Assembly (NCBI GenBank): GCA_963969365.1
Contig: OZ017753.1
Span: forward strand, 992,001-1,056,000
Direction of reading: 5' to 3'
Origin: Asterochloris sp. CNOR1
Lineage: Eukaryota > Chlorophyta > Trebouxiophyceae > Trebouxiales > Trebouxiaceae
Length of the DNA stretch: 64,000 nucleotides
The position numbers were made by a program, and so were the translations under genes. Positions 1 to 64,000 of this stretch are shown piece by piece. How positions within the stretch are numbered: position 1 is the stretch's first letter; the number at the start of each line of letters is the position of its first letter. Below the pieces are notes generated by a model that was given only the letters and a program-made list of their open reading frames with translations, did no database searches and was not told where the DNA came from.

Positions 1-3000
1 CAACCAGCTGGTGCCATGGCCTCTCAGCAAACATCAGTATTCTGCGGGGCCACACCTGCATGTGCTGCTGCTGCTGGTCCTGGCGCCGCCCTGCCTGCTC
101 AGCAGCCAGCTGAGCAGCCTGCAGGCGCTCCACAGCAGCAGCCCTGGCCGCCTCCGCAGCGGCCACCTGCACAGGCAGCAACCCCTCATCGGCTTCACTG
201 CGAGCTTGAGTCAGCAAATTCCCACAGTTTTCTGGCAGCGTTAAACAGAAAGGTGTTTTGCCTCCAGCCAGTGTAGCACCGCATTGCTTCCATAATGGTG
301 CAAAGCTGCACTTTTACTAGCCTTATCGAAATGGCTGATAAACTCTGAGTGACAGCTACTGATCTCAGCTTGGCCTGCCAACCCCCCTGCCTTGCATCCA
401 CAGCTTTGCTTGAAAATTCCTCATTGACTCACCTGGTCGACTGCCTTCTGGGCAACTGTGAGCGAGGCCAGATGGGCCTCTGTGCGAGCCGTGACCACCT
501 CTGGGGACCCATAGTGCTGCCGCAGTGCATCCAGCTCATGCTGCAGCGTCTTGCAAGCGGCAGCGCCCTTATCCAGACTGGCCTGCAGATCCTCAGCCTG
601 CATGGCCAGCAGCACTCATCACGAAGGGCACCGCCGCTGTGGAGCGTCCATGCTGGAGTGTTCTGCAGATTGCAGCAGCCCTGTCCTGACTGGCTTGCAG
701 GTTTCCAGCCTGCAAGGGCGCTACCACTGTATCCTTGTAGAAACAACCTGTAGTATGCACTGCTACTGATCTGCCAGCTGCACGTGTCCAGCAGTCAGCT
801 CATGAACAGTGTATTGAAGCAGAGTGCTGCAATCTCAATGTACCGCAGCGCTCCACAACATAGCGAGCACAGGGGCACCAACATTTGTCCTGTGAGCAGG
901 CAGCACAGCTTTTCGTGTGTCTGATTGCCCCACCACAAAGCAGCATGGGTACAGCTTGCAGCGGGCAGCACCTGTGCCCGCCATGAGGCCGCCTCCCGCT
1001 GGGCTTCCAGCTGTGCCTGCTGGGCATGAGTAACCAGCTCGTCAGCTGCCACCTGCGCCTCCCGAATCTGGGCCTGATGTCCCTTGGCGGCATCCACAGC
1101 AGCTGCCTGGCTGTCCAGGCGCGCCTGCAAGTCCAGTCTTACAGGTTGTGAGGGGCTCTGACTGCAGCTGTGCTCAAGTGCTTGGCTGCTGAGGCTCTGA
1201 GCACTGCTCTATGATGTCTGCAAGGCTGCATGACTGCACACTGCATGGGGCGGATTGCTTGATGCATGTGAAGGACTTGAATTGCACCTCATCTCTGCTT
1301 TCAAGCCCATGACTGCATCTGCACCCACCTGCAGCTGGTGCACAGCTGCCTCCAGATCTGCATCGTGGGCCACCAGGGTGTCCCTGGCATGGGCAGCCTC
1401 CTCAGCTGCCCCTGCTGCCTCTCTCAAGCACTGGTACACCTGCACGCCACCAATGGCTGCTCAACATATCTGCAGTTGCCCTGCTGAAATTCCCTGGAAA
1501 AGTATGGGCCCACCAGTTCTTGGGGCCTGAGAGTGAGGTTGCTCAGCCAGCTGCTCTGCTGTGCTACCAGGCATTGCCCACTAGGGGTGCGAAAAAGGCC
1601 GGTTATTAGCCTGGCAGAGCGCTTGACAGATACCAGAGCTCTGCCAAGTTAGTGCCGAGACACACTACACGTTCCACCTATGGAGCGACGCTGCAGGGCA
1701 TCATCCAGCAGGGCAATCTGCCTGGGGTTTTTCTGCCGCAAACAGCAGACCACTCGCCTGCTCGTGCCGCCGGTCAGCATGCAGCAGGGCAGCCTGACTG
1801 GCCTGCAAGGCCTCCTGCAGATCCTTGGCCTCTGCTGTGACAGCTTCAGCTGCAGCGCTGGCCTCCTGCTGTGCACGCTGAGCATTAGTCAGCTGTGCAC
1901 GGCATCTGTCCAGCTCTGCCTGCTGGCTGCCGTGCTCATGCTGCAACCTGCTGTGAGCGTCCTGCATGCAGGGAAATGCAGTCACTGCGCAATGCTTGCT
2001 CTGTACAGCTCAAAGAACACCAAGGGCAGTTGCAAGCCGTCCAATCTCTACCAGCCCTGCAAGCTCCTGCTACACGCTAGCCCCGCCACAGCCTCAGCAT
2101 TCAACAAAGTGCAACCTGCACCAGGCCACTGTAGCCCACGCACAGCCCCTTAAGCTCACCTGCAGCCTCTCAAGCTCCAGCTGCACCCTCTCCGCCCCCG
2201 CCACAGCTGCAGCCGCCGCCCCCTGCTCCTCCTGTAGGGCCTGCTGCAGCTCTGCAACCTGGCTGCTCAGCGCTGCAGCCTCCTGCTGAGCCAGGTCCAA
2301 GGCCTGCGTGGCTGTCCTGTACTTGCTGGCAGACTTGGCTGCAGCAGCCTCCGTCAGCTGCAAGCGCTCTGCTGCCTCCGAGAGGTCCCGCGCCATGGCC
2401 CTGCTGCCAGCTGCCTGGGCCTGCAGAGGTGACAAGAAAAGGTGACAGTCAAAGTTGGTGACTCAGACAGGTTCTAGACCTTCGCGCATTCAGCATGCTG
2501 CTTCAGACATGGTTCCAACCATGGCGCAGGTGGTGGAGGCTTTGCAACAAGCCTGCAGCGGCAGCAAGAGGCTGTGCAGCAACAGCCACGGCCTGTGAGT
2601 GGCATGCCCAGGTTGCAACATGATGAGGTGAATGTCCAGTGCCTGGTCCTGCCTGTGCAGGGTGGGGCCCAGGGCTGCATGAGCTTGTCTGCTGAGGATG
2701 AGCTGCATGTGGCTGCACATAGACTTCCCAGCATGCCTGCACTGTTGACTTCAAAACCAGGGACACAGCAGGGGCACCTGACACCAGGCTCAAGGGTCCC
2801 GGGGAACTGCAGGCACGCAAGGCTGTTACTACCCCCACACCTGCACTGTCTCCCGCAGCTGCTGCAGCTCCCCATCAGCCTGCCGCTGCTGCTCCAGGAG
2901 GAGGTCGTTCTCCTCCCGCAGCAAGGACATCTGCTCAGCTATGGCTGTGCTGGCGCCCGCCCCCGGCTCCGCAGACTGCTGCGTGGCGGCCACCAGGCGC

Positions 3001-6000
3001 TGCAGGGCACCCTCCAGCTGGGCATGCAGACGAGCATTCTCGTCAGCTACCTGATCCACCTGCAGATGGGGCACGGGAGGGCAATGATTGCAATGTGCAA
3101 GCAAGAAGTTTCATCAGCTGCCTGGTCCACCGGGAAGAGGGCACTGGAGTGTCGCTGCACTTCGACATGTTTGATGAGGTGTGGGCTTGTTTTGATTGCA
3201 GGAGAGGCAGCTATTGGCCTTCACAGACAGTGACTTCAGCAAGGAGTGAGCCCAGCTTGGGTGAGCCAGTAGCTGGGAAGTTGGCAGCTGTGCCTGCCAG
3301 GCATCAGGTCAGGCCAGCTGAAGCAGTCACCACTGCGTTCCATGTCAGGAGCTGGCCAGATGTGAGCTGTGTACAGGCCGAGGCCGCAGCAACTCCCCAG
3401 CTGGCAGCAGAGCCCACCTGCTTGTGCAGTGCCTCTGCCTCCCTGGCAGCTGTGGCCATGTCTGCCTCCTGCGCAGCCACCCGGTCATCATACGCCTTCA
3501 GGAGAGGGGTCAGCATCTGCTGGTCTGTCAGCCAGGGCGCTGGCGGGCCAGGGGTGACCGTTGCAGCTGCAGCTGTGGTCACTGCCTGCCCCTGGGCACT
3601 GGGGGACTGCACCGCTGCAGGGCTGCTGCCCTGAGCCAGCTGCGCTGCTGCCAGCTCATGCGACAGCCGCGTGACCAGACTCTCCAGGAACGTCACCTGC
3701 ACCACCAGGGGCAACTAGGTCCTCCAGTTGAGGGCTCCCCTTTCCAGAAGCCAGATTGTGCAGACTGTGCGGCTTACTGGTGTGGCAGACTCCAACAGAC
3801 ATACTTGGCTCAATGCAGCAGCAGCCGCATGGCATCTGCTGCAACAGAGTTGCAGTGATCAGCCAGTGGCATCAAAGGCCTAAAACGCCACTGAAAACCA
3901 GCTCACATGGACATGCAAGGCCATGGACTCCAAGCTGACTGCATCGAGCAGAACAGGCTCTCTGGTCCTGCAATATGGTTTCATCATTAGTCAGCCCACC
4001 TGACTCTGAGCTGGAGCAGGGCTGCTACTGACTCCAGGCTGCAGCGTTGCCAGCATGGGCACGGTTGCACTGCTGGCCAGTAGACTGGCCCTCTGCAATG
4101 CTTCTGCAGCTGCTCCCGGCGCTGCCACCTGAGCAGGGGCTGCCCCTGCCTGACGCACATCAGCCCCCTGTCCGCCAAGATCTGCTCCTGATGCACCGGC
4201 CAGAGCAGCGGGCAGATGCCGCTCCGCTGCAGGCTGCTGTGAGGGTGCTGCAGCAGGCTCAGGCAGCTGACCCACAGCTGGCCGCGCATTCTCTGCACTT
4301 CCCTGCAGGCTGCTGCCCCCCCATCCGCCAAGGCCTGCCCCTGCCCTGCCAGCCTGGGCAGCAGGTGTGTGCTGCCCAGCTGCCACCTGTCCACCCTGGC
4401 TGGCAGGCGCTGCCGCTCCTGGCTCCATGTTCAGCTGCCTCTGGACTTGGGCAGGCCTGGCAGCCTCCAGAGGATGTGGTGCAGCACCCACACCCGCCTG
4501 CTGCCCAGCATCTGCACCTGCCCGCTGCCTGGCGTCCTCACCCTTCTGTTCCCCGGCCTGCTCCTGGGCGAGAGGGGATGCAAGGTACTGCTGCCTGGCA
4601 GCCTGGGCAGCACCACCAGACCTGCTGACTCCCTCTGGTGCATGCGGTGCCTGCAGCCCCTCATGAAGGCCCTGCTGTGTCTGCAGATGCGCCTCCTGCT
4701 GCACTGGCTCCCCGTGCACCAGCCTGACGGACTCGACAGCATCGGGACGTTGCTGCAGCAGCGGCCCCTCCCCTTGATCACGAGCATCTGCAGGCTGCTG
4801 CTGCCTGCCTGTCACCTGCCCAGCTGACTCATCCAGTGCACCAGCCTCAGGCACCACCAAATGAGTTTGCTGGTCTGCTGTGTCGAGCTGCATGCCAGCG
4901 TCTTGTGTTTGCTGCTGGGACTTTAGGGATGTGGCCCGCTGTGCTGCAGCGTGCTGCCCAGCAAGATCGTGCTGCATGCGCATCTGGGACTGGGCGCTGA
5001 ACTGGGACCAGGTGCGGCTTCCGGAGGGGCTGGCTTCCACCTGCAGTCGGCACCAGGTACATATGCACAAAACTATGAGGGTGCAGGTGCACAAGGCAGG
5101 AAACGTGGGCGGCACACAACATGCTGGACGCTATGGCTGAGTAAGTAATCTGCGTATCCACTACACATTTTGGCTTGCTGACAACTTATACGTGATGGCA
5201 AGACTGCACCCCATGGCAACTTGGCCAACCAGACTGCTTGGCTGATTTGAGATGTATACCTCACAGAAGTTTTGCAGCAACAGCCCAGCATGCTCACCCC
5301 AAAGTCAGCCGAGGTGTTGCGCATGGTGGGCGATGTCGAAGCCCCAGTCTCCAGAGGAGCGTACACTGCCCTGTGCTCCTCCAGCAGCTGGCTGCCTGGT
5401 GCATGCTGCAGGGACCAGTCACTTGTCCCATTTGCTGGGGAGTCCTGTGCCAGGGGTGCCTGCCGCACAGGGTCGTCCCGGCTGGACTGCACCTGCAGGG
5501 TAAGGTCCCATTTGCTGGTACGCCGCTGAGAGCTTGGTGGGCTACCCTCCAGGGCTGACTGCAGGAGGCAGGAAGACAGCAATCAGCAAACAACAATCCA
5601 CCTCAATCGCTGTTGTGGCGACTGTATGGGATATAAAGGGAGGCAGGCTCATATCTGCTTCTGGCTGGCAGCGCAGGTGCTGGTGGAATAAGGTCAGACA
5701 GGTGCACATGTGCAGACATGCATGCTCACCTGGGCATGGGCTGGCGCAGCGCCTGCGCTGCTGCGGCCCTGTCGGGGTGCCTCAACCAGGCTGCCGTCAG
5801 CAGCTAGCTGCAGGACCCCCCTGCTGTTGCTCCTGGCCATGCTCCCTGCCTCAGCTGATCTGCCGTGCCTGCTGCCCTCAGCAGACCCCCGCTCAGCCAC
5901 CAGCACCGCCTGCGGCCCTGCAGGTCCAACTGCCAGCACTCCCCTGCCCTCTCCAGGACCAGCTCGCTCCCGCACCCCACTGCTGCTGCTTGCCCCCTGG

Positions 6001-9000
6001 GAAGCAGAGGCCTGCTGCCCAGATGTGTTGCCCTCCTGACCAGCGCTGCTGGATGCCAGCCTGAGGGTTCCAGCGGTGGCAGGCATGGTCGGTCCGCCAG
6101 AGGCTGTGCGGGCTGCCCTGGCACCCAATGGCCCTGGCGAGGCAGTGTCATCGGGCACCTGCAGGGCAGCAGAGAGCGGGCTCTGCATGTGAGGCGTGCG
6201 GGGCTGTGGGCAGCTCCAGGCCGACTCACTGGACTGTGCCCGCCCTGGACACCTGCCAGCAGCCAGGCAGTGGCCCCTCAGTTGCTGTGAGTGCAAGGCC
6301 ATGCAGTCCACGCCAGCCATGCAGCTGAGACCTGTGGGCAGACAAGACGTGTGGACTGCATGCCTGCCTGGAAGGAGCCTTGTCGGGCCTCCTGGCTCGT
6401 CTGCAGGCTCTTGAGCATCTGATCGGCTGCTGCGTCACTGGCAGCACTGCTGGGTGTCGGCTTCAGGGTCAGCGACCCTGATCGGCTGTCAACCTGCAGC
6501 AGACATCCTGGCCGCTTTGAACCAAGCACTGCTGGCCTGCGACACATATTGCGGGAAGTGACAGGTATGAGTGGTCGAGGGGCTGTGCAATGCGATTGTG
6601 CCCAGCCAGACCACAGGTGCCAGGTGCACCAATGTTGCTGCATGCCTGTGGCAGACAAAACTGGTCACCCTGCAGCCTGCAGCCCCCTTTCATTGCTGCA
6701 CTGCAGCCCTGCAAAATGCAGCTCGCAAACAGTCATGATGTGCACCTGCAGCTCACGGCGAGACCCGCCAGCCTTCAGCTTCTCCAGACGTTTGGTCTCG
6801 GCAGCCTCCAGGGTCACTAAGCGCTTCTGCTTAGCGGCTTCCAGCGTAGCCTGGCGCTTGCGCTCAGCAGCCTCATCCTTAAGCCGCCGCTGCTCCTGCG
6901 CCGCCTCCCGCTTGTGCTTGGCAGCCTCCTCTTGCAGCTGACGCCTGCTCTTGGAGCCACCTGCCAGCCCCTGCACAACGACTGCCAGGCTTAGCAGAAG
7001 AGCATGGATAGGCTCAGCAGCCTCCTCCAAATGTCAAACATTGAGGCCACCTGCGAGCCCTTGTACACTCACAGCACAGCAGTGGACTCAATGGCTTGCA
7101 TGCTTGCTCTTGTCACAGCATGTGCACCTCACTGCTTCGGCCTCATTGTTGAAGTTTGGGCGAGTTGCAGGGGACTGCTGAAGGCACAAAGTGTCACAGA
7201 AAGCAGCTGACATTGCTTGAGGCAAGATGAATAGCAGGAAGCAGAGGGTACACATTGTGAGAGAACAGCAGAAAGCACCTGAAGTTGCTACTTCCTGCAG
7301 AGAGGAGTGCAGGCAGCCCAGCATGCTGGGGCCAGGAAGCTGCACGGAAGAAGCATCTGACCTACCTGGGACCCAGTGCTGGCGCGCAGCGTGCCTGGCG
7401 CTGAGGCTGCACTGCCCTCTGGCATGCCCTCGGCCGTGGAGGCAGCGGTGGCCAGCTTGCTGGGGGAGGATGAGCGGCGCATGCTGATGCGCCCCAGGCT
7501 GCGGATGGGCGCCAGCAGGGCTGAGCCCATACGCTTCATGGGAGACCGTCCCCGCTTGGGGGAGGCCTGCACGCCCTGCGGAATGGTACTGCATCACTCA
7601 ATATGAGCTGCCTCACACTGAGCGTGGGCGGATTTGAGCCCATGCACTTGATGGGAGACCCTCCCTGCTCAGGAGAGGCCAGCGCACCCTGCAGGTGGCG
7701 GGGCAGCTGCTCAGTGCAGGGCACTGCCTGCCTACAGCAGGAGTGTGGATGATGGCTGGCACAGTGTGTTGCATGGGAGCAAGCAGGGCTGAAATGTGCG
7801 CTTTGTAATGACCGTCACCAAAAGAAATAACTGCACCCTGCAGCCCATCAGTCATTGCCGGCTAGACACTGACCACTGGCAATAACTGGGCAGGGCTGGT
7901 CAGACATTTGTTTCACCTTGCAGCGACTCAGTGGAGATGTCCCCTGCTGTGGCTGCTGTACAAAGCTAAGAGCCGCCTGCCTATACATGGACAAAATGAA
8001 ACTATATGTGCAAGGCACCTGCCCTGAGACACCAGATTGCCATGACAGCAGGTTCTTGGCGGCGCTTGCTTGCTCGCCAATGGTGCTAGTGGGACCGGCA
8101 ATGGATGTAACCCCCTGATACATTCAAGTCGACACCAGCAGTACTTGCCTGCTCGCCCATGGTGCTGGTGGTGCTGGCGCCAGACGCCTCAACACCCTGC
8201 CGAGGGGACTGCAGGCTCAGGCGGCTGGGTGTGTCTAGACTTGACCGCTGGCGTGTGCGGCGCGGCTCCTCCGCCGGGGACTGCAGTGCATGAAGCTGCA
8301 GACCTGATCCAGGACAGTCTTTTGGGTGTGCAGCATGACACCACTGTCCCGGCCCAATGCAAAGCACATAGTAAAAGTGCAGAGCATTGGGCCACTGACC
8401 CAGTGCAGTAAAGCCACATAGGCTGCGCTTAGCAACCCGTGTCGTAAGTTGGGCTCTGCGGACAATGCCACAGGAGGCAACCCTCGGAGCGCCGTCCTGC
8501 TTCAGGCCGACAGCACATGTGGTTGTGCTGCTCATGTAAACTATCTTCAGCACCGCCTTGATTGTCTGTGCATCTCTCCTTGCTGCTGCTGCTGCAGGGA
8601 CTCCACCGGCGTCTGCACGGCTGCATAAAAGTGCCGCAGCACCAGCTACACCCTTGCAACCTCTGCAGGCCTTGGCGACGGAGGCACAGTATTCCAGGGT
8701 GCCTCCTGCCGGCAGCACCCTCCCTGACCTGCTGCCTGGACTCCACCACCCGCTGCACAGCCGAGTTGAGCTGCCGTAGCATCAGCTGCACGGACTCGGG
8801 GCCAGAGGCTCGCAGACGCAGCTCGCGGGGCCCCTGCGTCGTCTTGATCTGGACATCCAGGCAGTCTGGGGTGCCCTTAGTGGTCGTGCGTTGGTCTGCT
8901 GGCAGCCACTTGATGATGCCCTCATACTGGAAGCGCTCCAGGTGCTGTAGGGCATGGCAGAGTAAGAGCAACTGCATGTTTTGCATGCTTTGATGGAAGG

Positions 9001-16818: not shown

Positions 16819-16869
16819 TGGCGGACTGCTGAGGAGATCGCCTGCCCTAAATGTCGTACCTGACTGATT

Positions 16870-37200: not shown

Positions 37201-38099
37201 AGTTCTGCAGTTGTATCCTGCAGCCAGCTGCCCACTAGGGGACTTCCTGTTGGAGGTCAGCCCCTTCCTGTCACAGTCTCAGTCAGCGCAAGCTCTGTGG
37301 CCACAGAGCTGGCATTTTGGGGGCCACGTTGATCCATGTGCAGAGGGCCTGCTGGTCTCATCCCAGGCCTTGCCTGCCGTGTCTCCAGAAAGTGCGCCTT
37401 GCGCACTCCACTGCTCTGTGGCTGTCCTCATGTCCCCATCTGGTCAGGGCCAATATCTACAATATGTTTGACGCCCTGCTTGCCTGCCTGTCAGCTCAAG
37501 CCACTCTCCGGCTGCATTTCCTGCTGTAACCTGCCTCCCAGGGCGTGCTTTGCCGCCACTAGCGTGCCTTCTGTTGTGTGACTTGTCTGGGCAGCCTGAT
37601 GCCTATCAGGCACTGTGTCTTCCTTGTACATGTTCTGTTTGGGGATGTTGAGTTCCTATGCCAGCATATTTGAACACTTAAGTCTGCCAGCCTACTGCAC
37701 CCAGCCCTGACATGGGCACCCATCCTTTTCCATGCCTGCTTGCGCAAGGCGGCCCCTTGGGCTGCCAACGTCACCTCCCCTGCAGCCCTGCATGGCATTG
37801 TTGACCAGCACCTGAATGTCATCTCGCCCACTCTGCCTGCAGGCTACTTCACCTTCTGGGTCATCCTGTCCATGACGTGGGGCCTGATTGCTGCCGTGAT
37901 TGCCACCCTGCTGCCCATCTGGGAGTCTCGCGCAGCGTTGACCAACATGTGCTACCATCTGGTGGGCAAGGGCAGCAAGATCCCCAGCACCGGGGAACCT
38001 TCCCCGGTGCCGGTCGATGATTTCAAGCCTGCCTCCAAGGATGTACAGATGGGCACCCCAGCTGTCAACGACGACTCGGCGCACGCCTTCCGAGTCTGA
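31268..38099 (+). CDS. DUR3: DUR3-type urea/cation symporter
   Basis: High-affinity urea symporter of the sodium:solute symporter family, acting at the plasma membrane. Exon 1 (31268-31507) ends with [16 protein letters not shown], equivalent to the N-terminal CQRQSSFFGG of plant DUR3. Exons 31704-31777, 31906-31994, 32131-32157, 32466-32758 and 33102-33266 join in frame. They carry [71 protein letters not shown] and [16 protein letters not shown]. Later exons give [70 protein letters not shown] and a C-terminal exon from 37843 to the stop at 38097-38099. About 14-15 membrane helices are expected. Order and spacing match the family throughout. The ATG at 31268 (accATGc) is the best start, but a shorter N-terminus from a later exon start is possible. 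Confidence 0.93.
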
Positions 38100-48168: not shown

Positions 48169-48428
48169 GATCTCAGCCTAGATTGATCTCCGACCAGTCA
48201 ACCCTTTTTGCCATCTGTGGCTGATTGGTCGTGCAATCAAGTCGAGACAAGTTGTGTCCGTACAGGTTCAGGTCTTCAATGAGGACATCACCTGGAACAC
48301 TGGTCCAACATCAATCTGGAGTTCCGCAGCTGGGATGTACAGCACAGCAACAGAGGCGATCTTTCCATCTGATGGTAGGCCACCAGATGCTATTGAGCAT
48401 CGCATGATTGCACAGGCAGGCTTTGCCC
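48169..48428. promoter_or_regulatory. Divergent upstream region, phosphoserine phosphatase / isoamylase
   Basis: 260 bases between the two proposed start codons, expected to hold both promoters. No TATA box stands out. A short plus-strand frame runs through 48254-48451 but has no splice or domain support. Confidence 0.35.
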
Positions 48429-51400
48429 ATGCTCTGTTCGCCACTTCGTGAACAGCCAACAACAAAGGCGACACAATACAAGGTGGTTGAAATCTCAGCA
48501 TGGCAGGCTCTGAATGCCGCACTGCAGGCCCTTACAGCCAACAATCGCCCACCAAGGCCTGCACAACAGGTGCAGGTGCAGGCCAAGTCAGTGGCTGCTC
48601 CTGCCAAGCAAACCAAAGCCAGGAAGGCGCCGGAAGCGGCCAATGCTGACTTGGCACTGCTGCGAGGTGACAGCATTCAGCATCTGTTTCTGAGCAAGCC
48701 AGGCATATGCAGCCTTGCATCCTACCTGCATGAGCAGTCATGTCTTTTATGCTGTCAGCAGTGCAGAGTGGCATCACAACCTGCAGCCATGATGCCTTCT
48801 CCTACAGGAGCGCTCAGCCTTTGCATCAGACCCTTGGCCATGCAGAGCACCATCCACTGTGTGCCCTTGTGTGCCTTGCCTCCCGCTTGTAGGAGCGCCC
48901 TCGTCTGTGGGGTCCCAGCCACCCTGTGCAGCGTGATTGCTGACTCCACACATTGGTTGGTAGCCTTGCCTGCCGCCTGCAGGAGCGCCCTCGCCCCTGG
49001 GGCCCTCGCCGGTCCAGGCTGGTATCAACTTTGCGCTGTACACGGAGCACGCAACAGCCGTCACCCTCGTCCTGCAGACTGCCGTATCTGAGCCCCCTCA
49101 GGAGTTTGCCCTGACCGCTGAGCAGCACCGCACCGGCAACGTATGGCATGCGCTGGTGGAGGGGCTGCCCAGGGCTGGGGTGCTGTATGGATTCAGGGTG
49201 GATGGCCCAGGCGGGTGGGAGACAGGCAACAGGTGAGGCCCAGCGTGGCAAGAGATGATGGCAGGCTACCCCTGGTCGGGGTGCAACATGGCTTCAGCCA
49301 GGAGTTGAGCTAGGCAGATGGCAGACAGCAGCAGGTCAGCTGTGCTGCTGCCCTTAACGAGTGCTCAGGGCCAGATTTATGTGCTAAGCCAGGAGCAGCA
49401 GCAGACCTGTAGCCCCATGTGCAGCAGGTGCGCAACACTGCCCATTGCTTGGGAAATGTTTCAAGAGAATGAGCAGAGTTGAGAGTCAGCTGCAGGCATG
49501 CTACCAGCCAGAGCCCCTCCTGTTCCCAGCGCATTGCTCAAGAGCGTCCAATGGCAGTGCGCTTCTCTCAGAGCCCAAGACTTGAACGGTGCTTGTGCTT
49601 GCAAAGGCATTCCAGCTGTGAACAAGCACACCTGTGTTGTGCACGCCGCTGGTAACATAGCAGGTATTCCCTCACCCCTCAGCAAAAGGATGCTGCTGCT
49701 CACTGAGCCAGCTGTCATGCGCTCATCTGCAGATGGTACCCTGAGAAGGTGCTGCTGGACCCCTATGCCCCTCTCATTGCTGGCAGGCAGCGCTTTGCTC
49801 AGCGTGATCAGGTGGAACAATTCCACGAGAAGGTGGGTGGACCAAAGCGCATGCCTCTTAGCAGGAAGTTTTCTTGAGCACAGCCCCATGGACACAGTCA
49901 AAGCAGCGACGCAAGTCAGCAACGCTGCCTGCTGCTGAGTGGTGGGCATGCATGTCAACCACATTGCTGTCCTCAGCTCTGCTGCCGAGGCTGCCCCTGC
50001 ACCGCAAACACCTCCTTTGGGAGATTTGCCTTATGAGGAACATTTTTGGTGCCTGATTCCCTGTCGTCTGATCTGCTGACCCCCAAGCCTGTAAGGGATC
50101 CGCCCCTCTGGCAATGCTCACTGGCATCAGACAGCTCTGCTGCCTGTTGAGGATGCCTGGTGGGCGCCGCTGACAGCTGGCCATGCCCCGGCTGCCTGCT
50201 GCGATTGCCTGATGGGCGCTGCTCACACTCGCTGTCTCCCCATTGACCCTGCCGCTCCTTGCTGGGCACCATGGGCATCCTTTCATGCAGCGCTGTTGTG
50301 GTGTCTTCAGGAGGGCAGCGTATTCAGGGGAACATTTGATTTCACCTCAGAGCCATTTGACTGGGGGACGGACTACCACCGCCCCAATCTGCCCTGGCAG
50401 GACCTGATTGTGTATGAGATGCCCATCCGGTCCTTCACTGCCGACCCCTCCAGCGGAGTGGGAGAGGGCCTGCAGGGCACCTTTGCTGGCGCTGCTGCCA
50501 AGGTGGGCACTGCTCCTGTCAAGTACCTGTTGCAGCCCTGCTGTTGGGAAGGAAGGGTCCCAGGCAAGGTACAGGGGCAGAACCCAATGTTGGTGCTGCA
50601 ATGCATGCTAAGGAGGCATGTTGTCCATCCCTAAAGATGCATCTAGAAGCCTGGGCAGGGGACGGCAGCCCTATGCTCCCGCAGCGGGGTGTCGTGTCCC
50701 GCAGGGTGGGCAGCACCTTTGTGCGGGCAGCTGCCAAGGTGAGCACACAAAGGAGGCCTGGGGTGATCTCCTGCACACGCCTCCAGTGGGCTGGACAAGG
50801 CATTCCTGTGTCTTACGCAGCAGTGTGCCAGCCTGCAGTGTGGGTGCATCCAATGGGTGCAGGCGAGGGCCTGCAGGGCAGCTATGCTGACTTGGCTGCC
50901 CCAACAAAAGAAAATTTGAGACTAATCTGTTGCAGCCCTGCTGTTGGGAGGGGCCCAGGCAAGGTGTCTTTGCAGGGGCAGCCTGCACAGGTGGGCAGTT
51001 CTGTCACAGTGGGCAGCAAATTTGCTGTGCAGGGCTTGTTTGGAGGCCAGCAAGCAGGTGTTGATTTGCTCCGCATCTGCAGAAATGGCTCATGTTCTCC
51101 TGCAGCAGAGGAAGCAGCTACTGCACAGCTGCCCCGACTGGTTACCAGCCCCAGCAGTGCGTACACCCGGCAAGTATGGAAGCTGTACTGTGCAAGTGCA
51201 CGCCTGGCTTCAGTCCCCATGCACCAGTGGGAAGTGGGTCCTGCACAGCTGCCCCACCGTACCACAACCAGGCTGGCACAGGCCTCCTGCCACACAGGAT
51301 CTTGTCAGTAAATGCTGTCCATGCAGATCCCTCACCTGAAGGAGCTGGGCATCAATGCAGTGGAGGTTCTGCCTGTGTTCGAGTATGATGAGCTTGAGTT

Positions 51401-54400
51401 TCAGCGCAGCCCCAACTCGCGGGACCACATGGTCAATATCTGGGGCTACTCTCATATCAACTTCTTTGCCCCCATGTGAGTTGGCCTGCACTTCATGCAG
51501 CACCTTGCACTTGAACAGCCCATTTGGCGTTGGTGTCTGCCCTCATGCAAGCTTGGCTGCAACTGCGCATGTGGACGGTGGTGCACATGCAGGTGTCCAT
51601 TAAGTTTTGTGCACCTTATGACTCTGGCTCAGCTCTGCACATGCTGCTCATGCAGACTCCGTCAGGCATGGCTGCACACCTCCTGCAGACATGCAGGCTG
51701 TGCTCAATTGCACCTGCCTTGTTGCAGGAGCCGCTTTGCAGCCGATGGCGGCGGCCCGGCTGCTGCTGCTCGGGAGTTCAAGCAGCTGGTCAAGCAGCTG
51801 CATGAGGCTGGCATCGAGGTCATCCTGGATGTTGTTTACAACCACACTGTGGAGGGTGCGTCTCTTGTGTCCACAGAAAGCACGAGAGATATTTCCTGGT
51901 GTGTTCACAGGTTGTTGGAGTGCATTTGGTGGTGGAGGTTGTGAGTGGTCAACCTTGACATGCAGCTGAAGGTCTAGTTGCAGGCATTGCTTAGACAGGC
52001 TTGAGGCATCTCTGGACTTCCAGCAAGCAGATGCTGTGCAATGAGGCATCTGCTATGCTTGTTGGGCACAAGAGCGTACCACTCACATGCAGCCTTCGGC
52101 CTGTGCATTTGATTGGTGGCCATGCTGTATGTCTAGAGTAGCCCCTTTTACCTGGCGGCGCCTCAGTGACAGACTGGGTCCTGAGTTGTGGAACTCCTGC
52201 ACCCACAGGCGGTGACGATGACCCCTACACGCTCTCCTTCCGGGGTATTGACAACAGCACCTACTACATGCTGGACAAGGCGCAGTATGTGCAGCTGCTC
52301 AACTACAGCGGGTGTGGCAACTCCATCAGCGGGAATCACCCCCAGGTCAAGCAGATGATCATCGACTCTTGCAAGCAGTGAGTGACCAGTTTGGGAGGCA
52401 TGCTTGGGGGATCGCCATCTGTGCTGCCCTGCGCAGGCTGCTGTTACTGACATGCGAGCCTCTCGAGCGGTGAAAATGGTGGCAATCCCTCTCTCCCTTT
52501 GCAGACGTTGCCCCCCAGGCCAGGCACATGGTCATGGGGGCCTGCAGGCCGCAAGTTGCTTCCTCTCTGCCTGCCTGCTTGTCCTCTGCTGTACTGTGAG
52601 GGTCTCAGCGCCTGATCAAGACCCTGCTGGAGCTCTGCAGCCTTCTGAGCATCTGTACACATCATGGAGGTGCCTTGCGCTGAAGCTGTGACTGCACAGA
52701 CACAACTTGCTGGTCCCGCTGCGACTGGGGGCGGGGGGCATCCCACTCTGCCTGCTTAGCCCCTGGCTGTACCTCTTTTACACACAAAATCTATTGTCAC
52801 AAAATCTATTGGTGATCCCCCGGATCCCAGGCGCTTCAAGGACATTAGCTGTGCTGACCCGCAGCTGGGTGGAGGAGTATCATGTGGATGGCTTTCGCTT
52901 TGACCTGGCCTCCTGCCTGTGCCGCGACCCCCAGGGGCACCCCCTGGCAGCGCCGCCACTGATCCGGGAGCTTGCCAAGGACCCTGTGCTGTCCAAGGTG
53001 AGGGCTGGCAGCAGCGCTGCTGCGCCACTGTCAACACATGCAGGTGACAGGGAAGCTGTGCAGAATGCCAGGGCACGCTGTGCTTAGCTGGCAAAGGACA
53101 CTGTGCTCGCCGCAGTAGGGACGCACTCAAGTCCTACCTCTGCAGCGACCCCTCCTTTCAGGTGCAGCGCCCAGCAGAATGTGAGTGAAAGTGCTTGCTT
53201 TGTGATTTGCACGGCAGGTGAGGAATAGGGCTGTGGTGCTGTGGGAACCACCAATCTGCTGCGCTGATGTAGGGCTCTGGCAGACCTGACGCTGACGTGT
53301 TTCAGTTGGCAACCTGCCTGTTCGCACATGCTGTGGCCAGGCAGTAGGGCTATTTCTCTCTGGTGCAATTACATGCTTGTCATAGCTGCTCAGGTACAGT
53401 CTGCATGCCTTGTAGCTCAGTCTTAGTGGCAGCCTTGCACCTGGGGGTCCATGCTCATGATGCAGCACATGTGGGCCCAGGCCGATCATAGGGAGCTCTA
53501 TAGCTGCTCAAGGATGCTGAGGCTGAGATGAAGGCTCCTGCCGTGTTCCGCCTGGCCGTCAATTCCCTGAGATTGTCCAGGTTGACATGGTTCCACTGCC
53601 CGCCAAGCCAATCTGATCATGGATCCCCAGGGGTGCCTGACACACTGAAGCCCCTGTCCCTGCATCTTATTCATGCAACCTGGACGCGCTGTGCAGTCAA
53701 GCGCTGCCAGGCCAAGCTGATCAAAGACTCCATGGACTGTACTGGCCTGCAGCAGGCTGGGATGTGAAGATGGGAGCACACGACATGCTGTCGGCTGCCG
53801 AGGGTCTGTGAAGACTGCTTGTTCCTGCCCTTTCAGGTCAAGCTGATTGCAGAGCCCTGGGACTGTGGGGGCCTCTACCAGGTGGGCGGCTTCCCCAATT
53901 GGGATGTCTGGGGGGAGTGGAACGGCAAATTCCGCGACGATGTGCGCCGCTTCATCAAGGGGGACGCCGGCGTCAAAGCAGCCTTTGCCACCCGCATTGC
54001 TGGCTCTGCAGACCTGTACAACGTCAACAACCGGTGAGGCATGGGGGTGCCACCTGCATGGCAAAGCTTGGGCCAGGGAGAAACTTCCAAACCTGTCAAC
54101 AAGCTGATCTCTGTAGCAGCCTGGCCTGCAAGCTGCGCACACGCTGCCAGATGCCCTGGCTGCGACTTCGCACAGCAGCTGTGAGTTTCGCAAGCAGCTG
54201 TACCTGTACAGAGCATGAGCTTCCTGCAGACTCACGGCCTGGGTGTGCCCTGACGCTCCAGCTCCCTCTCTGCCCTTGTGCAGGAAGTTCCACCATGGCT
54301 TCCACTTTTGCATTGATTGCCTGCACCGGCCTCACCCTGTGAGACATTACATCTGCCTTTGCCCATCTGGCTCACACAGAAAGCTGCAACATGGCCTCCA

Positions 54401-56623
54401 AATGGGCACAACTGGCTGGCAACCCAAGACCTGCTGGCTGCCCTGCAGGAAGCCCTACCATGGCACCAACTTTGTGATCGCCCACGATGGCTTCACCCTG
54501 CATGACTTGGTGGCCTACAACGACAAGCACAACGACGCCAACGGGGAGCAGAACCGCGACGGCAGCAATGACAACTTCAGCTGGAACTGCGGGGTTGAGG
54601 GAGACACGCAGGACGCGGGGGTGCTGGGGCTGAGGCAGAGGCAGATGCGCAACCTCATGGTGGCGCTGATGATGGCCCAGGGGACGCCAATGGTGCTCAT
54701 GGGTGAGCAGAGGCAGCTTGAGCCTCCTCCTGGCGCTCTGGTCTGTCAGGCTGGGCAGGATGCGTAAGGGCAGCTTCTCAGAGCTTCCATGGGCCAGGGC
54801 TGACCACTAAGAGTGGCACAAAGCCTTCTGGGTGTTGCTTGAGCATCGGCGCTGATGGTAGCCCAGGAGACGTGCATGGTGTGTAGGGGTCATGGCAGGC
54901 TTTGTAAGGTGATCTTGAGCTGTTGTGGTAGCAGGTAGGCAGAGGGCGCATGGTCCCTCCTGGTGCATCTCAGGGCGACTGGGGCCCAAGCCATGCTGAG
55001 GGGAAGCAGTATGAATTGCTGATGGTGGCACTGAGCAGGCTAATAATCCAACAGTCATGTCCATGGCCTCTGCTGTCCAAAAAATGTGAAGGCCAGATGG
55101 TAGCATGGTGAGTGCTGGCATCTGCCTGCTGCAGTTGCTGCCAGATGAGGCACCCCTCGCTTGTGCTGGCACATTTTGCTGGAAGAGCAGCCTGCTGCTG
55201 GCGGGGTGGCAAAGCAGCAGGCAGATGCCAGATGAGGCACCCCTCGTTTGTGCTGGCGCCATTTGCTGGGGGAGCAGCCTGCTGCCGGCAGGGTGGCCAA
55301 GCAGCAGATAGCCTTTGCAAAGCAGCCATGTGGCTCGCGCACCTGTCAGAAGCTGAATGGCCGCCTGCGCAAGTGGGTGATGCGAGCCGTGCAGAGGATG
55401 GGAAGGAGCAGTCATGGAGGGCGACAACAATAGCTTGGTGTCAACTCTGCTCAGCTTGCAGTGCACAGGTTTGAGCAGCAGGCCATGCTTGCACTCCAGG
55501 TGATGAGTATGCGCAGTCCCGCGGGGGCAACAACAACTGGTACGGCCATGACACGCGAATGACGCGCTTCGAGTGGGACCAGCTGGAAAAGCAGCGGGGC
55601 ACCTTCTTCAAGTTCTACAGGTGGGCTTGCGGGGACAGAAGCCTTGGTGTGCTTCATATGCTAAGTATTAATGAATCTGTCAGGGGGCAAAGCAGACCTG
55701 AATGCTGGTTTTGCTTCTGCTTTTGCAGTGAAGTGCTCTGCTTCAACCCCAGCTGTGCCATGATTCACTGACTTTGCTGGCACCCCTGCTGAGCCTCAAC
55801 AAAGCCTGCTGACCCTTGTCCTGGCACCCCTTGCCGGGCATCAATATAGCCTGCTAATCCTTGTCGTCCCCGCACTAAGCGCCATCACTTGCTGATTGAG
55901 CAGTGCTCCGTTATGGAGTCATCAAATCTGTCCCTGCTGCAATGGCCTCACCCACTTATGGCAGCATAGCTGCAGAAGCAGAAGCTTTGGAGGTGCATCA
56001 TGCTGTTTTCAATTTGCCCATGCTCGTGCAGAAGAACCCCTGCTGTGGCCCAGCATTGCTGTACATGCTCAGGCAGTGGCTAGACTCATTGATGACCCCT
56101 TCTGCAGTGGCTAGACTCGTTTAAGCCCCTCCTGCTGTGGCCTGATCAGTTCCAGCCACAGCACCTGTGCAGCTCCTGAGATGTGCTCACCATTTTCACC
56201 CGCATTGGCAGTGGCACCCCAGCAGGGGCTCACAGCATTGCTCGGTAAACAGTCAGCTCTCTTTCCTGTAGTGGCCTGATCCACTTCCGGCGGCAGCATC
56301 CTCTGCTGGGGCGTGCGGAGTTCCTGGGCCCTGGCGACATCACCTGGCATGAGGACAACTGGGACAACCTCGACAGCCGCTTCCTTGCCTTCACCCTCCA
56401 TGACAATGGGCAGGGTGGGGGCAGCCTTTATGTGGCTTTCAATGCCCACACCTATGCTGTGAATGCCTGTCTCCCAGAAGCCCCCAGTGGCAAGAGGTGG
56501 AGCAGAGTTGTGGACACCAATTTGTGGGACCAGGGCAAGGATTTCACTCCCGGGGGCAATGCTGGTGTGGACGCAATGTACAATGTGCAGCCCTTCTCTA
56601 GCATAGTCCTGATGGCAAAGTAG
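48429..56623 (+). CDS. Isoamylase-type starch debranching enzyme
   Basis: GH13 enzyme that hydrolyses alpha-1,6 branches of glucan, expected in the plastid. The proposed exon 1 (48429 to about 48667) starts [18 protein letters not shown], is Ala/Gln/Lys-rich and fits a transit peptide. It joins in phase to the exon at 48983 ([20 protein letters not shown], the CBM48 start). Later exons carry [48 protein letters not shown], region [36 protein letters not shown], region [14 protein letters not shown] (nucleophile Asp), region [23 protein letters not shown] (acid Glu), region [22 protein letters not shown] (stabilising Asp), [19 protein letters not shown] and the C-terminal exon from 56272 to the stop at 56621-56623. 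All catalytic residues are present. The sequence does not by itself decide between ISA1 and ISA3 type. Several introns hold decayed copies of neighbouring exon edges. Confidence 0.92.
48790..49020 (+). repeat. Three tandem acceptor/exon-start copies in isoamylase intron 1
   Basis: Acceptor AGs at 48806-48807, 48891-48892 and 48981-48982 are each followed by gagcgc. The last two copies share cctc.c.ctggggtcc or ggccc after it, and both are preceded by ttgcct.ccgc.tg. Spacing is 85 and 90 bases. Only the third continues into the long conserved frame ([13 protein letters not shown]). All three are formally usable 3' splice sites. Confidence 0.8.
50454..50990 (+). repeat. Copies of an exon end and donor within isoamylase intron
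   Basis: The exon end at 50454-50508 (..[14 protein letters not shown] before GTGGGC) and its following intron start recur at about 50855-50951: gagggcctgcagggcagc..., and later the same ttgcagccctgctgttggga. A third partial copy at 50705-50744 keeps gcagctgccaag followed by gtgagc. The outer copies are about 400 bases apart. Confidence 0.75.
53700..53890 (+). repeat. Decayed copy of isoamylase region III exon start
   Basis: The real exon start at about 53836 (caggtcaagctgattgcaga..) has a degenerate copy at about 53707-53760 (ccaggccaagctgatcaaag.., then gactgtactggcctgcagcagg against gactgtgggggcctctaccagg). They are about 130 bases apart. The copy lies in the upstream intron. Confidence 0.7.
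54660..55130 (+). repeat. Copies of exon end before the MGDEYAQ exon in isoamylase intron
   Basis: The exon end at 54660-54708 (gtggcgctgatgatggccca.., donor GTGAGC) recurs in the same intron at 54846-54890 (atcggcgctgatggtagccc.. gagacg.. atggtg). Shorter partial matches occur near 55018-55040 (gctgatggtggcactgagcag) and 55088-55115 (agatggtagcatggtgagtg). Confidence 0.65.
55138..55325. repeat. Two tandem copies of about 95 bases in isoamylase intron
   Basis: Copies at about 55138-55225 and 55226-55320 share gccagatgaggcacccctcg.ttgtgctggc, ttttgctgg or tttgctggg.gagcagcctgctgc.ggc.gggtgg, and caaagcagcag or ccaagcagcag. They are near-identical, so this duplication is younger than the others in the same gene. 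Confidence 0.85.
56030..56300 (+). repeat. Copies of acceptor and exon start before isoamylase C-terminal exon
   Basis: The real acceptor is at 56270-56271, followed by tggcctgatccacttcc. Related segments occur at about 56132-56151 (gctgtggcctgatcagttcc), 56082-56110 (gcagtggctagactcattg) and 56104-56120 (gcagtggctagactcg), plus a weaker one near 56036 (gctgtggcccagc). Confidence 0.7.
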
Positions 56624-59046: not shown

Positions 59047-59109
59047 GGTGCCCAGATCACAGATGTGAGCTCAGCTGTCAGGTAGGGGAAGCCTCACCTA
59101 GCAAGGGTT
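59047..59109. promoter_or_regulatory. Very short divergent gap, bL25 / ABA4-family gene
   Basis: Only 63 bases separate the two proposed start codons. If both models are right, promoters and leaders of the two genes must overlap each other or the coding parts. The ABA4-family first exon is uncertain, so the real gap may be wider. Confidence 0.3.
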
Positions 59110-60604: not shown

Positions 60605-63600
60605 ATGAGCCTTAGCTGCCCGGGCATCGAGGCACGCTCCCAGCGTGTTGACAAAGGGCATGCCGTGCAGCCAGGATCTGCACAGACACTCGTTGTCCCC
60701 TGCAGCTCTCTGCAGAATGGGGCTGCCCCGCACAAGGCGCCGCCAGCCTCCCCGTCCCGCATCTTTGACATCCAGGCAGTGAGCAGGGAGATCAGCCGCC
60801 GTTTCAGCCTGGACGACTATGATTTCAATGCCGCACAGGATCGAGTTACCAGGATCGACCAGATACAGGTACGGGGCCTGTTTGCGTTGCTGTACTGCTT
60901 CAGCATGCTGCCCTGCCTCATGGATGAGCCAATGCTCGTGTTTTAGGATTGAACAGACACAGGTGGGGCCTGGACATTGACAGCGCAGGATGCTGCCGTC
61001 TGTGTCACCGTCACCGTCATTGCTGCACCACTGTTCTGGTGTAAGTCAGGATCGAAAGCAAGCCTGTGCTGCATAGCTAGCGCTGCTTACGGCTGCTGGC
61101 AATGACAACTGCTGAGACGGCCCAGCCAGTCTTCCAGTCGGGGCCTTTTGTCAGCCCAGCTGCAGGCGATTGCACCTGCTGACTCTTCGCTTGTCCCCCA
61201 CGTCCCTCAGTGGCCTCGATGTGTGTAAGCAGAAGCCAGTCGCAGCTTCTGTGCATCTTGTTGTTACCCTGCCCTTCATGCAGCTGGAGGGGGGCGGCAG
61301 CTCCACTCACAGGCTCTGCGCCAGCCCCTGAGAGATGCTGCCACTGTGCAGCTTGAGGAGGTGGGGTCCCTCCCTCGGGTGCAGACCAGGATGCGGAGGA
61401 CATGGGACAACCTCCTCAGTGGCCTGGCAGACACCTTCACAGTCATCAAGCTGTCCACTAGACTGGCAAGCTACCTGGGCGTTGGTGAGCAGCCTCTGAA
61501 ACTTTGTTTGTGGGCTGCACCGCAGTGCTGCGCTGCGGGCTTGCTGTTGAGCATCTGGTTGCAGGTCAGCAGTCGCTGCCAGTCAGCTTGCATGTTGCTT
61601 TGATGGTATCTGCGCAGCCCCATCTTGCCAACCGTCAGTGAGAGCGGGCTGATGCTCAAGGGCACGCCCAGTGCTGCTCTGCTGGTTCACTCAAACAGAG
61701 CAGTGCGACTGTCCCACGTGCAGGTGGGGAGTGGATGAAGAAGCTCTTCCAGCTTCTTACCTACACCATGCTTCTCATGCCAGGCTTTGCACAGGTCAGC
61801 CCAGCCTCAACAAGCTGCTATGACTGCCTCATGTGCACATTCCCACCAGCACTGGGCTATGTTGCACTGGTGCCTGTGATACCAAGCCTCAAAGAGGAGC
61901 ATGCAGTGGCAGCCTGCAGGCTGCATGTTGCCAGCATCCACCCTTGCCACACGCAACCTGACAGCTGCTGAGGATGTGCCCTGCATGCGTCCTGGTGTCT
62001 GCCAAAGCGTTTTGGAGTGCTGCAGATGGTGCTGTGGTCTGTGCACTGCACTGCATGTGCTGCCTCCCTGGTCAAACTGGTTTCTGGTGACTGCAGATGG
62101 TGCTATTTTACTTCCTCTCCCACCGCGTGATCCGCAGCGTGCAGTATGGGGAGAAGCCCCGCAACCGGCTCGACATGTATGTGCCTCGTAATCACTGGAG
62201 GATGCAGAAAGGGCTACGCCCTGTGGTCATCTATGTCACAGGTAGGCTGCCTGAGGTCACTCCTGAGGGGCCTGCAGGAAGCCACATGGTGGAGGGATAT
62301 AGTGCCATCGCTGGGGGTCACCACTCACGGGTCTGCAGCGGCTGTGGACCGCAGAGGCGCAGGAGCCCAGAACTTGGTCACAAGCATGTAGCGTGCATGC
62401 GGCCTATCGCCCATTCTAGTGTCACAGGCTCGACTGCACCCACAACAGCGTGCCTGTCAGTAACACTTTGAGGGTCCACAGCAAGCATTGAGGCGCTTTG
62501 TTACACTGCAGGGGGTGCCTGGATCATCGGGTACAAGGCCTGGGGCTCCCTGCTGGGACGGCGGCTCAGCAAGCAGGGGGTCATCGTGTGCTGCCTAGAC
62601 TACCGCAATTTCCCACAGGTGAGTCTGCCACATTCAATGAGGACGGGCCATTTGTGTGCCGCTATGGTGACCGCAAGGTGGGTATGCCGCGTGCAGCAAG
62701 CTGCTGCTGCACTAAAACCGTTTGCACATCCCACAGAGAGGTCTGCCTCAGTAGCAGAGAGTCCCTGTAGAAAAGCTGCCTAGACCACCCCGACTCCTCG
62801 CAAGTGGGTCAGCAGGCCTAAGCAAGCACCACTTCGCTATGTCTCCTGCCTCAGTCACGTCAAGCTGTCATAGGCAGGTCTTGATGGGAGGGTTGTCTCA
62901 AGCAGCCTGCAGAGCCATGCTGAAAGCGCTGTCTGGTGCTTGCCTGTCATGCAGCAGCTTGAGCTGAGCGGAGGTGCAATGGTCGATGTGTGCCTGCAGG
63001 GCACAATCATGGACATGCTCACTGACGTGAACACTGGCATCGGCTGGGTCATGGAGAAGATAGGGCAGTATGGAGGTGGGTGGTGTCATCCAACCACCTG
63101 CCCCAATGAGCAAGATCCCAGCCCGCCCATCAGCATTGCTGCCCCCTGTGCAAGCTGCCAACAGCTTGGGATGGCCTGAAGTGGCCTGCCTGGCCAGTGC
63201 AGCACCTGTTGACAGGCGGTGTCCCCCAGCAGAGCAGCACTGGTCCAGCAGAAGCTTGTCAGATTGTCATGGGGTGCCCAAGCAGATGGATGTCCAGTGG
63301 GGTCATATATCTGCATCGATGCTTCCCTGATCTCTGGAGCCCAGGTCCCCAGATGTGTGTGCACCACCCGCAGGTGACCCAGACGACATCTACCTGGTGG
63401 GGCAGTCCTGTGGGGCCCAGCTGGCCACCCTTACGACCCTGGTGCAGGTGGGCACTGATGGGTGACAGCAGGAGGCAGAGCCTTTATGTCTGCCTTCACG
63501 TGCAGCCCAGCACCTGCATCTGCAGCGCAGCATCTACACCTGAGTGGGTCTGTCGCATAGTCGGGCGATCAGCACTGTGCTGCTCAATGTCCCTGCTTCA

Positions 63601-64000
63601 ATGAGCTGATCATGCTTGCAGGCCAGGGTGGAGCACAGCATCATTGAGCCAACGCCCCTGGCTGTAGGTTGAAGTGGCACACAGCAGCAAGCCTGTCTGA
63701 CTTGACTGGTTTTGGGCTGCAGCTTCAGATCTGCACCTGCCGGCAGGCCGAGGTGAAGCACCTGTCCCACCTGATTGTTTTTGGGGCTGCCCCTTTGAGA
63801 CCTTCCCCTGCCTGTAGGCCAAGGCGGAACACAGCCACCATCCCTCTACAAACCTGAGTCATGCTGGAACTGCTGCAGAAAGTCCCCTGCCTGTGCCTGC
63901 AGGCAAAGGCAGCGTACAGCAACAAGCCCGCCCTCTTACAGACTTGAGCTAGGCTTTTGACTGCTGCAATCCTCAACCTCGTGCTCGTGCCTGCAGGCTG
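60605..64000 (+). CDS. Isoprenylcysteine methylesterase-like alpha/beta hydrolase (3' end outside window)
   Basis: Membrane alpha/beta hydrolase like plant ICME, which removes the methyl ester from prenylated C-terminal cysteines. The proposed ATG at 60605 (agccATGag) leads to [20 protein letters not shown] and later [20 protein letters not shown], ending LASYLGVG (61327-61483). Then [20 protein letters not shown] (membrane helix, 61730-61795), [20 protein letters not shown] and NRLDMYVP (62097-62240), [21 protein letters not shown] with the GGAW oxyanion motif (about 62220-62550), [33 protein letters not shown], and [20 protein letters not shown] (about 63375-63430), where GQSCG holds the catalytic Ser. 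The catalytic Asp and His lie beyond base 64000. The last intron seen contains five decayed acceptor copies, and the next exon starts at about 63997. Confidence 0.85.
63610..64000 (+). repeat. Array of six acceptor/exon-start copies in the methylesterase-like gene
   Basis: AG dinucleotides at 63620-63621, 63666-63667, 63745-63746, 63816-63817, 63901-63902 and 63995-63996 are each preceded by a CTGCAG, TGTAG or GGCAG tract. The first five are followed by a related segment read as [36 protein letters not shown] or AKAAYSNKP. Spacing is 46-94 bases. Several copies run into stops soon after. The sixth is cut by the window end and is the most likely real exon start. Confidence 0.8.

Follow-up and report, generated by a model that had tools for sequence, protein, structure and literature searches.

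A 64,000-nucleotide stretch of the green alga Asterochloris sp. CNOR1 (the window; bases 992001-1056000 of contig OZ017753.1, here C8) contains introns that hold imperfect copies of the adjoining exon edge, splice site included. The question raised by this locus is how such junction copies arose and what they say about the growth of the introns that carry them. Our answer is that they are probably the remnants of many old, randomly placed local head-to-tail duplications, each of about 100 bases, that lengthened introns.

The genome comprises 56.38 Mb in 21 contigs, and the guanine-cytosine (GC) content of the window is 55-64% in 2-kb steps. For Asterochloris glomerata, the available part of the genome description gives 56 Mb, 56-62% GC across 98% of the genome and a mean of nine introns per gene (PMC6652019). 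The main dataset (314 kb) joined the window to the next 200 kb of C8 and to 50 kb from contigs C1, C4 and C14; the comparison between contigs, and it alone, also drew on C2 and C10, with 10 kb from each. Genes were modelled ab initio, without RNA, using a semi-Markov finder with fixed length laws that was self-trained on the sequence, a plain hidden Markov model finder having been dropped when it collapsed into tiny exons and introns. The models contain 42 genes and 604 introns (median intron 262 bases, median exon 146) and gave the splice consensus CAG/GTGAG for donors and CTGCAG/G for acceptors. Within the window, homology backs the models of an ankyrin and histone-deacetylase protein, a sodium-solute symporter family protein, a protein kinase, a HAD-like hydrolase, an alpha/beta hydrolase, ribosomal protein L25 and isoamylase. 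The methylesterase-like gene is the alpha/beta hydrolase by homology, and the putative name of the coiled-coil-like gene was taken from the original prediction.

Comparison of the window with itself (ungapped, offsets of 20-600 bases) produced 50 segments scoring at least 16, and five dinucleotide-preserving shuffles produced 0, 1, 2, 0 and 0. Across the 264 kb of C8 the excess of segments was maximal at offsets of 80-130 bases and near background at 600-1000 bases, 8-9 kb and 20 kb, with a slight excess at 1-4 kb. Each junction was tested by comparing a piece of 30 exon plus 20 intron bases with the intron that it borders, length-matched other introns serving as the permuted control; once junctions with too short a flank or intron were dropped, 587 donor and 596 acceptor junctions were testable. 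At a score of at least 14, same-strand copies were found in the own intron of 51/587 donors (permuted 1.3, reverse complement 2) and 55/596 acceptors (permuted 1.8, reverse complement 1), or 106/1183 together compared with about 3 permuted and 3 in reverse complement. Within the 314 kb, the comparison of introns with their exon edges that had been proposed as a check of the original prediction gave a clear excess over controls. With the splice site left off and the exon edge used alone, copies were found for 40/562 donors (permuted 0.55) and 23/580 acceptors (permuted 0.40). Close to one splice junction in ten in the stretch studied has a decayed copy in the adjoining intron. For the window itself the count was 26/239 junctions, in 23 introns, at a score of at least 14 (permuted 0.6), 19/239 at 16 or more (permuted 0.2) and 7/239 at 18 or more (permuted 0.0), indicating that the predicted copies are real and commoner than originally noticed, when at least ten places were given.

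A second search, using longer exon edges and a score of at least 15, listed 123 copies in the 314 kb. The match covers the splice site in 99 of them, and half of these 99 lie at a distance of 92-164 bases. The window contributed 33 junctions, 26 with the splice site within the match: eight in the coiled-coil-like gene, seven in the deacetylase, nine in isoamylase, four in the methylesterase-like gene and five elsewhere, so that all four genes named at the outset hold copies. Their spacing ran from 48 to 256 bases. Pairs that are exon-exon according to the gene models, for example in isoamylase and the deacetylase, were excluded from junction counts, and a further isoamylase pair spaced by about 400 bases stands outside the 33, the gene model calling part of it exons. 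Arrays were also recovered, as predicted: at a score of at least 13, one or more copies were found at 126/1114 junctions of the 314 kb (permuted 9.4), and two to five copies at 23/1114 (permuted 0). The features of the window are as follows.

537-616, minus strand: real acceptor edge of the coiled-coil-like gene, junction 597/598 (segment score 27.2; gene model).
649-728, minus strand: decayed copy of the 537-616 acceptor edge, spacing 112, in intron 598-971 (self-comparison, second search).
7522-7579, minus strand: real acceptor edge, junction 7575/7576 (score 33.8, 81% identity).
7635-7692, minus strand: copy of the 7522-7579 acceptor edge, spacing 113, in intron 7576-8148; the intron matched one place in the genome.
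8065-8099, minus strand: copy of donor edge 8144-8178 (junction 8148/8149), spacing 79, in intron 7576-8148 (score 21.8).
8589-8651, minus strand: copy of the donor-side exon edge 8729-8791, spacing 140, in intron 8281-8728 (score 25.6).
23142-23362, minus strand: deacetylase array of three imperfect copies, 23142-23197, about 23226-23280 and 23304-23362 (scores 25.6, 36.6, 28.4); copies one and two lie inside predicted exon 23001-23332 and the third straddles its predicted acceptor.
23655-23710, minus strand: copy of donor edge 23738-23793 (junction 23750/23751), spacing 83 (score 23.0).
25214-25256, minus strand: copy of donor edge 25324-25366 (junction 25325/25326), spacing 110 (score 27.6).
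25656-25711, minus strand: copy of acceptor edge 25544-25599 (junction 25588/25589), spacing 112 (score 16.4).
48873-48920, plus strand: copy of isoamylase acceptor edge 48963-49010 (junction 48982/48983), spacing 90 (score 28.2); two copies counted for this junction at a score of at least 13.
50461-50552, plus strand: real isoamylase donor edge and intron start, junction 50502/50503, with copies at +236 and +400 (homologue).
50713-50746, plus strand: isoamylase donor-edge copy, spacing 236 (score 20.8), partly modelled as the end of an extra exon, 50685-50738.
50862-50952, plus strand: copy of the isoamylase donor edge and intron start, spacing about 400 (scores 23.6 and 23.8); its intron part is 96% identical across 26 bases.
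52512-52556, plus strand: copy of donor edge 52339-52383 (junction 52377/52378), spacing 173 (score 16.4).
53701-53756, plus strand: copy of acceptor edge 53827-53882 (junction 53836/53837), spacing 126 (score 18.6).
54848-54890, plus strand: copy of donor edge 54662-54704 (junction 54702/54703), spacing 186 (score 21.0).
55139-55307, plus strand: tandem duplication entirely within an intron of isoamylase (unit 87, arms 89% identical and nearly abutting), with a match at one place in the genome; an event of this kind that lies clear of any junction.
62775-62813, plus strand: copy of methylesterase-like donor edge 62590-62628 (junction 62618/62619), spacing 185 (score 17.0).
63613-63929, plus strand: array of four imperfect acceptor copies upstream of predicted acceptor 63996/63997, namely 63613-63639, 63724-63761, about 63795-63844 and 63886-63929 (last copy score 26.6); two counted at a score of at least 13, and copy 63724-63761 overlaps a predicted 30-base exon, 63723-63752.

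The coiled-coil-like gene also has a degenerate 33-base repeat at 6766-6874, within a predicted exon.

Isoamylase provides a case in which the real edge can be told from its copies. In the best solved chain, Isoamylase 1, chloroplastic, query residue 215 aligns with chain residue 229 and query residue 295 with chain residue 230, with no gap in the chain, and the three extra exons of the model (50685-50738, 50936-50990 and 51106-51233) together encode exactly residues 216-294. Residue 215 ends at base 50502, and the donor edge ending there is repeated at +236, the end of the first extra exon, and at about +400. Since the homologue is continuous where the model adds three exons, it settles which edge is real and marks the copies as spare. 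The pair 50461-50552 and 50862-50952 is the single instance of about 400 bases in the original prediction. The deacetylase array falls where the best solved chain has no counterpart (query 149 to 364), and to judge from this alignment the stretch may be either an intron or a protein loop. Annotators should be aware that such copies can be mistaken for exons.

The copies do not behave as coding sequence. In the exon parts of 81 alignments, codon positions 1, 2 and 3 were mismatched at rates of 0.176, 0.158 and 0.233, the synonymous share among changed codons was 0.283 compared with 0.270 for random changes, and the offsets were spread evenly modulo 3 (31/27/23). The near-random synonymous share and random offset frame rule out a coding function, and the pattern of change suggests that the copies are neutral. 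Profiles and ages were taken from 64 exon-edge cases (42 donors, 22 acceptors; an offset limit of 60 lost none). In 50 of these 64 copies, 7.5-22.5% of the bases no longer match the real edge, a divergence too large for assembly error, indicating that they are not plain assembly noise. Substitutions in the copies comprised 162 transitions and 165 transversions. At CpG sites of exon edges, transitions in the copies reached 0.22 per site (35/160), compared with 0.05 (58/1112) at other C and G sites; the excess may reflect CpG methylation. A different kind of repeat lies at C8:1083151-1083561 (in block C8:1076001-1086000), where the repeats within predicted exons are probably a coding repeat, every offset being a multiple of six (42 to 408 bases).

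Copies were commoner in longer introns. When introns were ranked by length into fifths, the share of junctions with a copy rose from 0.9% in the shortest group to 23.5% in the longest (0.009, 0.013, 0.059, 0.130 and 0.235 at mean lengths of 117, 197, 265, 347 and 573 bases), and the median length was 418 bases for introns with copies (n=86) compared with 256 for those without (n=472), consistent with the lengthening that the original prediction had proposed. A duplication spanning a junction should not grow likelier merely with intron length, and very short introns have no space for a findable copy. Five settings of a forward simulation were run. The best started from introns of median 160 bases, with 0.009 duplications per base per unit divergence and ages of 0.15-0.45, and gave 0.000, 0.023, 0.080, 0.123 and 0.214 when binned at nearly the same lengths. 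Without duplication there were no matches; long starting introns with few duplications rose to 0.059 only; a base of 180 with a rate of 0.006 was too low (up to 0.125); and a base of 160 with a rate of 0.009 and ages of 0.12-0.40 overshot the middle bins. These results suggest that, above about 160-200 bases, much of the length of introns came from local duplication.

Beyond the excess of local same-strand copies, their non-coding decay and their link with intron length, we infer that placement was random, that selection acted, that long introns grew from ones of about 160 bases and that duplication was once more frequent. Duplication units would mostly have measured about 80-230 bases and would have been placed at random over genes. 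Those wholly within exons would mostly have been purged by selection, those entirely within introns would have persisted, and so would those crossing a junction, the outer splice site still yielding the old mRNA. A duplication of the last kind would leave a spare exon edge and splice site in the intron, and repeated duplication would generate arrays and longer introns. The spare copy would then decay neutrally, protein constraint keeping the real exon edge, and because that edge is held by the protein a junction copy should stay readable longer than an intron-intron copy. As both arms of the intron part would decay but only one arm of the exon part, intron-side similarity would fade sooner, and through this unequal decay similarity would appear to end at the splice site. 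A candidate trigger at the DNA level is break repair with fill-in, which, in the part of the study available, was shown to make small tandem duplications in mammalian cells (PMC8355091). Such repair at broken ends gives head-to-tail copies of short stretches, as the copies here are proposed to be; that work was done in mammalian cells, its introduction refers to insertions under 100 bp, and it has no tie to this genome.

The distribution of identity around the junction bears on this mechanism. For donors (n=42), identity between real edge and copy was 0.73 immediately within the exon and dropped to 0.32 at +6..12 and 0.25 at +12..20; for acceptors (n=22), the corresponding values were 0.70, 0.39 and 0.31. 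Simulated decay of a tandem unit of about 110 bases (with an indel ratio of 0.25, an exon constraint of 0.2 and weighting by the identities observed) gave 0.72, 0.37 and 0.32 at the same positions, with a detectable intron part in 0.31 of cases; across four settings the values were 0.32-0.44 at +6..12 and 0.30-0.38 at +12..20, and a fifth run with ages of 0.4-1.2 was set aside, having only 19 detections. Uniform random placement approximately reproduced the junction-centred profile on the donor side. An intron part beyond the splice site was detectable in 16/64 cases (0.25), with about 3 expected by chance, and the most identical long-match junction case (positions 74116-74232 of the C8 stretch) is nearly a whole tandem unit, comprising exon plus 36 intron bases. 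Wholly noncoding duplicated pairs were found at 31 loci, some with nearly abutting arms, as at 55139-55307. Pair classes were compared with 60 circular shifts after 39 of the 199 segments had been removed as low complexity. Intron-junction pairs numbered 37 compared with 22.6 +- 5.2 when shifted, intron-intron pairs 35 compared with 52.8, exon-intron pairs 39 compared with 36.1 and exon-junction pairs 1 compared with 11.7, four results that unequal decay and selection would yield.

Several observations weigh against random tandem duplication. Three of them (the abrupt end of similarity, the gaps that separate the arms and the bare flanks) first led us to junction-only copying, in which the terminal 40-50 exon bases and the splice site would be put into the intron with no adjoining intron sequence. 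Per-position identity is at or near background by 12-20 bases from the junction. Significant intron homology is absent from 48/64 exon-edge cases, slightly more than in simulated tandem duplication, where the share with a detectable intron part was 0.29-0.45 in the four settings, all above the observed value. More than 10 bases separate the arms in 87/123 pairs (10 or fewer in 36/123), and similarity sought outside the blocks of 32 of the 123 copies, chosen on score, span, offset, gap and identity, was not seen in any. Gaps, absent intron part and bare flanks are what junction-only copying also predicts. In addition, donor test pieces at -50 and +12 reached 0.32 and 0.36 of the peak compared with 0.49-0.62 and 0.60-0.92 in the simulations, which cover the donor side, leaving a residual junction focus. 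The simulations themselves had indel ratio, exon constraint, unit length and ages chosen by hand; a first version with ages uniform from 0 to 1 was unfit (intron part in 0.55-0.66, profiles too conserved), and the fit requires old ages. The best forward simulation had a mean intron of 254 bases compared with 296 observed and an overall match rate of 0.067 compared with 0.090. Exon-exon pairs numbered 37 compared with 19.0 shifted, so that exons retain some copies, an excess that consists in part of coding repeats, and all gene models are ab initio and were made without RNA. Nevertheless, plain tandem duplication with unequal decay yields a nearly equal profile, and against junction-directed copying stand also the intron part in 16/64 cases, the 36 intron bases in the most identical long case and the 31 wholly noncoding loci. 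Random placement, selection and unequal decay explain most, not all, of the junction focus; no special junction-directed process is needed, and we consider one unlikely.

Three further explanations each appear less probable still. Copies acting as decoys or alternative splice sites under selection would be expected to keep their signals, and acceptor copies do keep AG at 0.75 (44 positions; the neutral simulations cover donors only), while isoamylase copies are exon-like enough for the gene finder to end exons there. However, donor GT is kept at 0.56, within the 0.46-0.66 of four neutral simulations, and the synonymous share of the exon part and the offset frame are those of neutral sequence; on these sequence comparisons splice-site function appears to have no support for donors and slight support for acceptors, and we regard it as very improbable. 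Introns born by duplication, a general idea raised in the original prediction, would likewise involve local duplication of exon sequence and splice signals, and in 4/604 introns the donor matched the acceptor at an offset equal to the intron length with a score of at least 14 (permuted 0.05). This model needs a copy at the opposite end of the intron, whereas the copies here lie mostly elsewhere: 80/99 spanning copies are closer to their own junction than to the intron's other end. All four candidates adjoin a predicted exon of 18-50 bases and are probably junction copies mis-modelled as mini-exons, leaving no secure case among the 604 introns and making this origin highly improbable for the copies. 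Introners or other mobile elements inserted beside junctions, also raised at the outset, have a precedent in the green alga Micromonas (in the available part of PMC3879977), but an all-against-all comparison of predicted introns returned 16 cross pairs and no shared intron family; six pairs came from one paralogous pair of loci (C1, C14) and the rest were short matches. A genome search with three stretches of the window matched a single place for each, which is no proof as the search skips common words. An origin of the copies in such elements is scarcely credible.

If local tandem duplication is the source of the copies, their identities should record its timing. The exon identities of the 64 cases, in bins starting from 0.70, 0.775, 0.825, 0.875, 0.925 and 0.975, numbered 7, 19, 24, 7, 5 and 2, compared with about 2, 6, 13, 16, 18 and 9 predicted at constant rate (two other settings were alike). 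Copies above 92.5% identity numbered 7/64, where a constant rate predicts 23-27. Decayed copies are thus present as originally described and near-identical ones are few, and the proposal that copies arise continually does not agree with ages skewed old. Because a steady process, regardless of later losses, should not give more old copies than young, the rate has dropped unless the assembly lacks near-identical copies, whose collapse may mimic a scarcity of young ones. Among wholly noncoding pairs, 7/31 are at least 90% identical. Hypermutation of the copies, proposed for the scarcity of young ones, was set aside; the substitutions look like ordinary CpG decay. A bolder reading, which we offer tentatively and hold to be possible rather than probable, is that almost everything in introns beyond about 160-200 bases is the fossil of a former wave of local duplication, since slowed several-fold, with exon edges as the clock.

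The pattern extends beyond the window but is uneven. On C8, 100/962 junctions had a copy (26 blocks of 10 kb), compared with 10/214 on the other contigs combined (seven blocks): C10 4/27, C2 3/38, C4 2/66, C1 1/51 and C14 0/32. Before C2 and C10 were added, the contigs other than C8 gave 3/165 (permuted 0.4). Raw segment density was less uneven, at 4.7 per 10 kb on C8 and 3.1 on the others, and the spread between genes was somewhat above that expected from intron length, 45/1000 permutations matching it. The proposed genome-wide process is consistent with copies on five of six sampled contigs, with the qualification that the rate is lower outside C8 and varies between genes and contigs. In the window, the symporter gene (31268-38099) had a copy at 1/32 junctions and isoamylase (48404-56623) at 6/30. 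The block C10:1000001-1010000 held twelve local duplicated segments in 10 kb, joint top among the 33 blocks. Blocks C1:510001-520000 (about 115-5288) and C14:700001-710000 (1-4341) have about 3.8 kb in common at 87% identity, besides two further shorter matches; the predicted gene in this segment has unusually short introns of 72-87 bases (overall median 262) and junction copies at 0/15.

Internal gene duplication in eukaryotes, that is, short duplications inside genes, was reportedly described by Gao and Lynch in 2009. Here such duplication is seen through decayed exon edges and is linked to intron length. As cited in the available part of PMC4974935, it is common in eukaryotes, and the same text describes the potato RdRp gene, in which tandem duplication across an intron-exon boundary made a new intron. 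There, too, the duplication spans an existing junction, and the splice signals of the new intron were mostly inherited from the parent structure, a layout that our four candidate duplication-born introns resemble. The potato example is a single new intron placed by comparing relatives, whereas here spare, decaying junctions occur at about one junction in ten in the C8 stretch, with no secure new intron. The introners of Micromonas are likewise a large-scale change of introns in a green alga (PMC3879977, available part), but here no common intron family was seen and the change is one of lengthening, not invasion. Events of this kind are already known. To judge from the open-access literature searched, which yielded no account of junction copies like these as a pattern at genome scale, what is new is how frequent the events are here, together with the arrays, the skewed ages and the link with intron length.

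Intron growth apart from mobile elements is hard to study, as noncoding duplicates erode from both sides. An exon-edge copy should erode from one side only and hence be recognisable for longer, which would offer a simple and testable measure of how often, and how long ago, duplications occurred in any annotated genome. If the bolder reading of intron length is true, conserved exon edges would allow the duplications behind the introns to be dated and counted from one genome, with no need of relatives for comparison. In this alga, the copies suggest that ordinary tandem duplication accounts for long introns.

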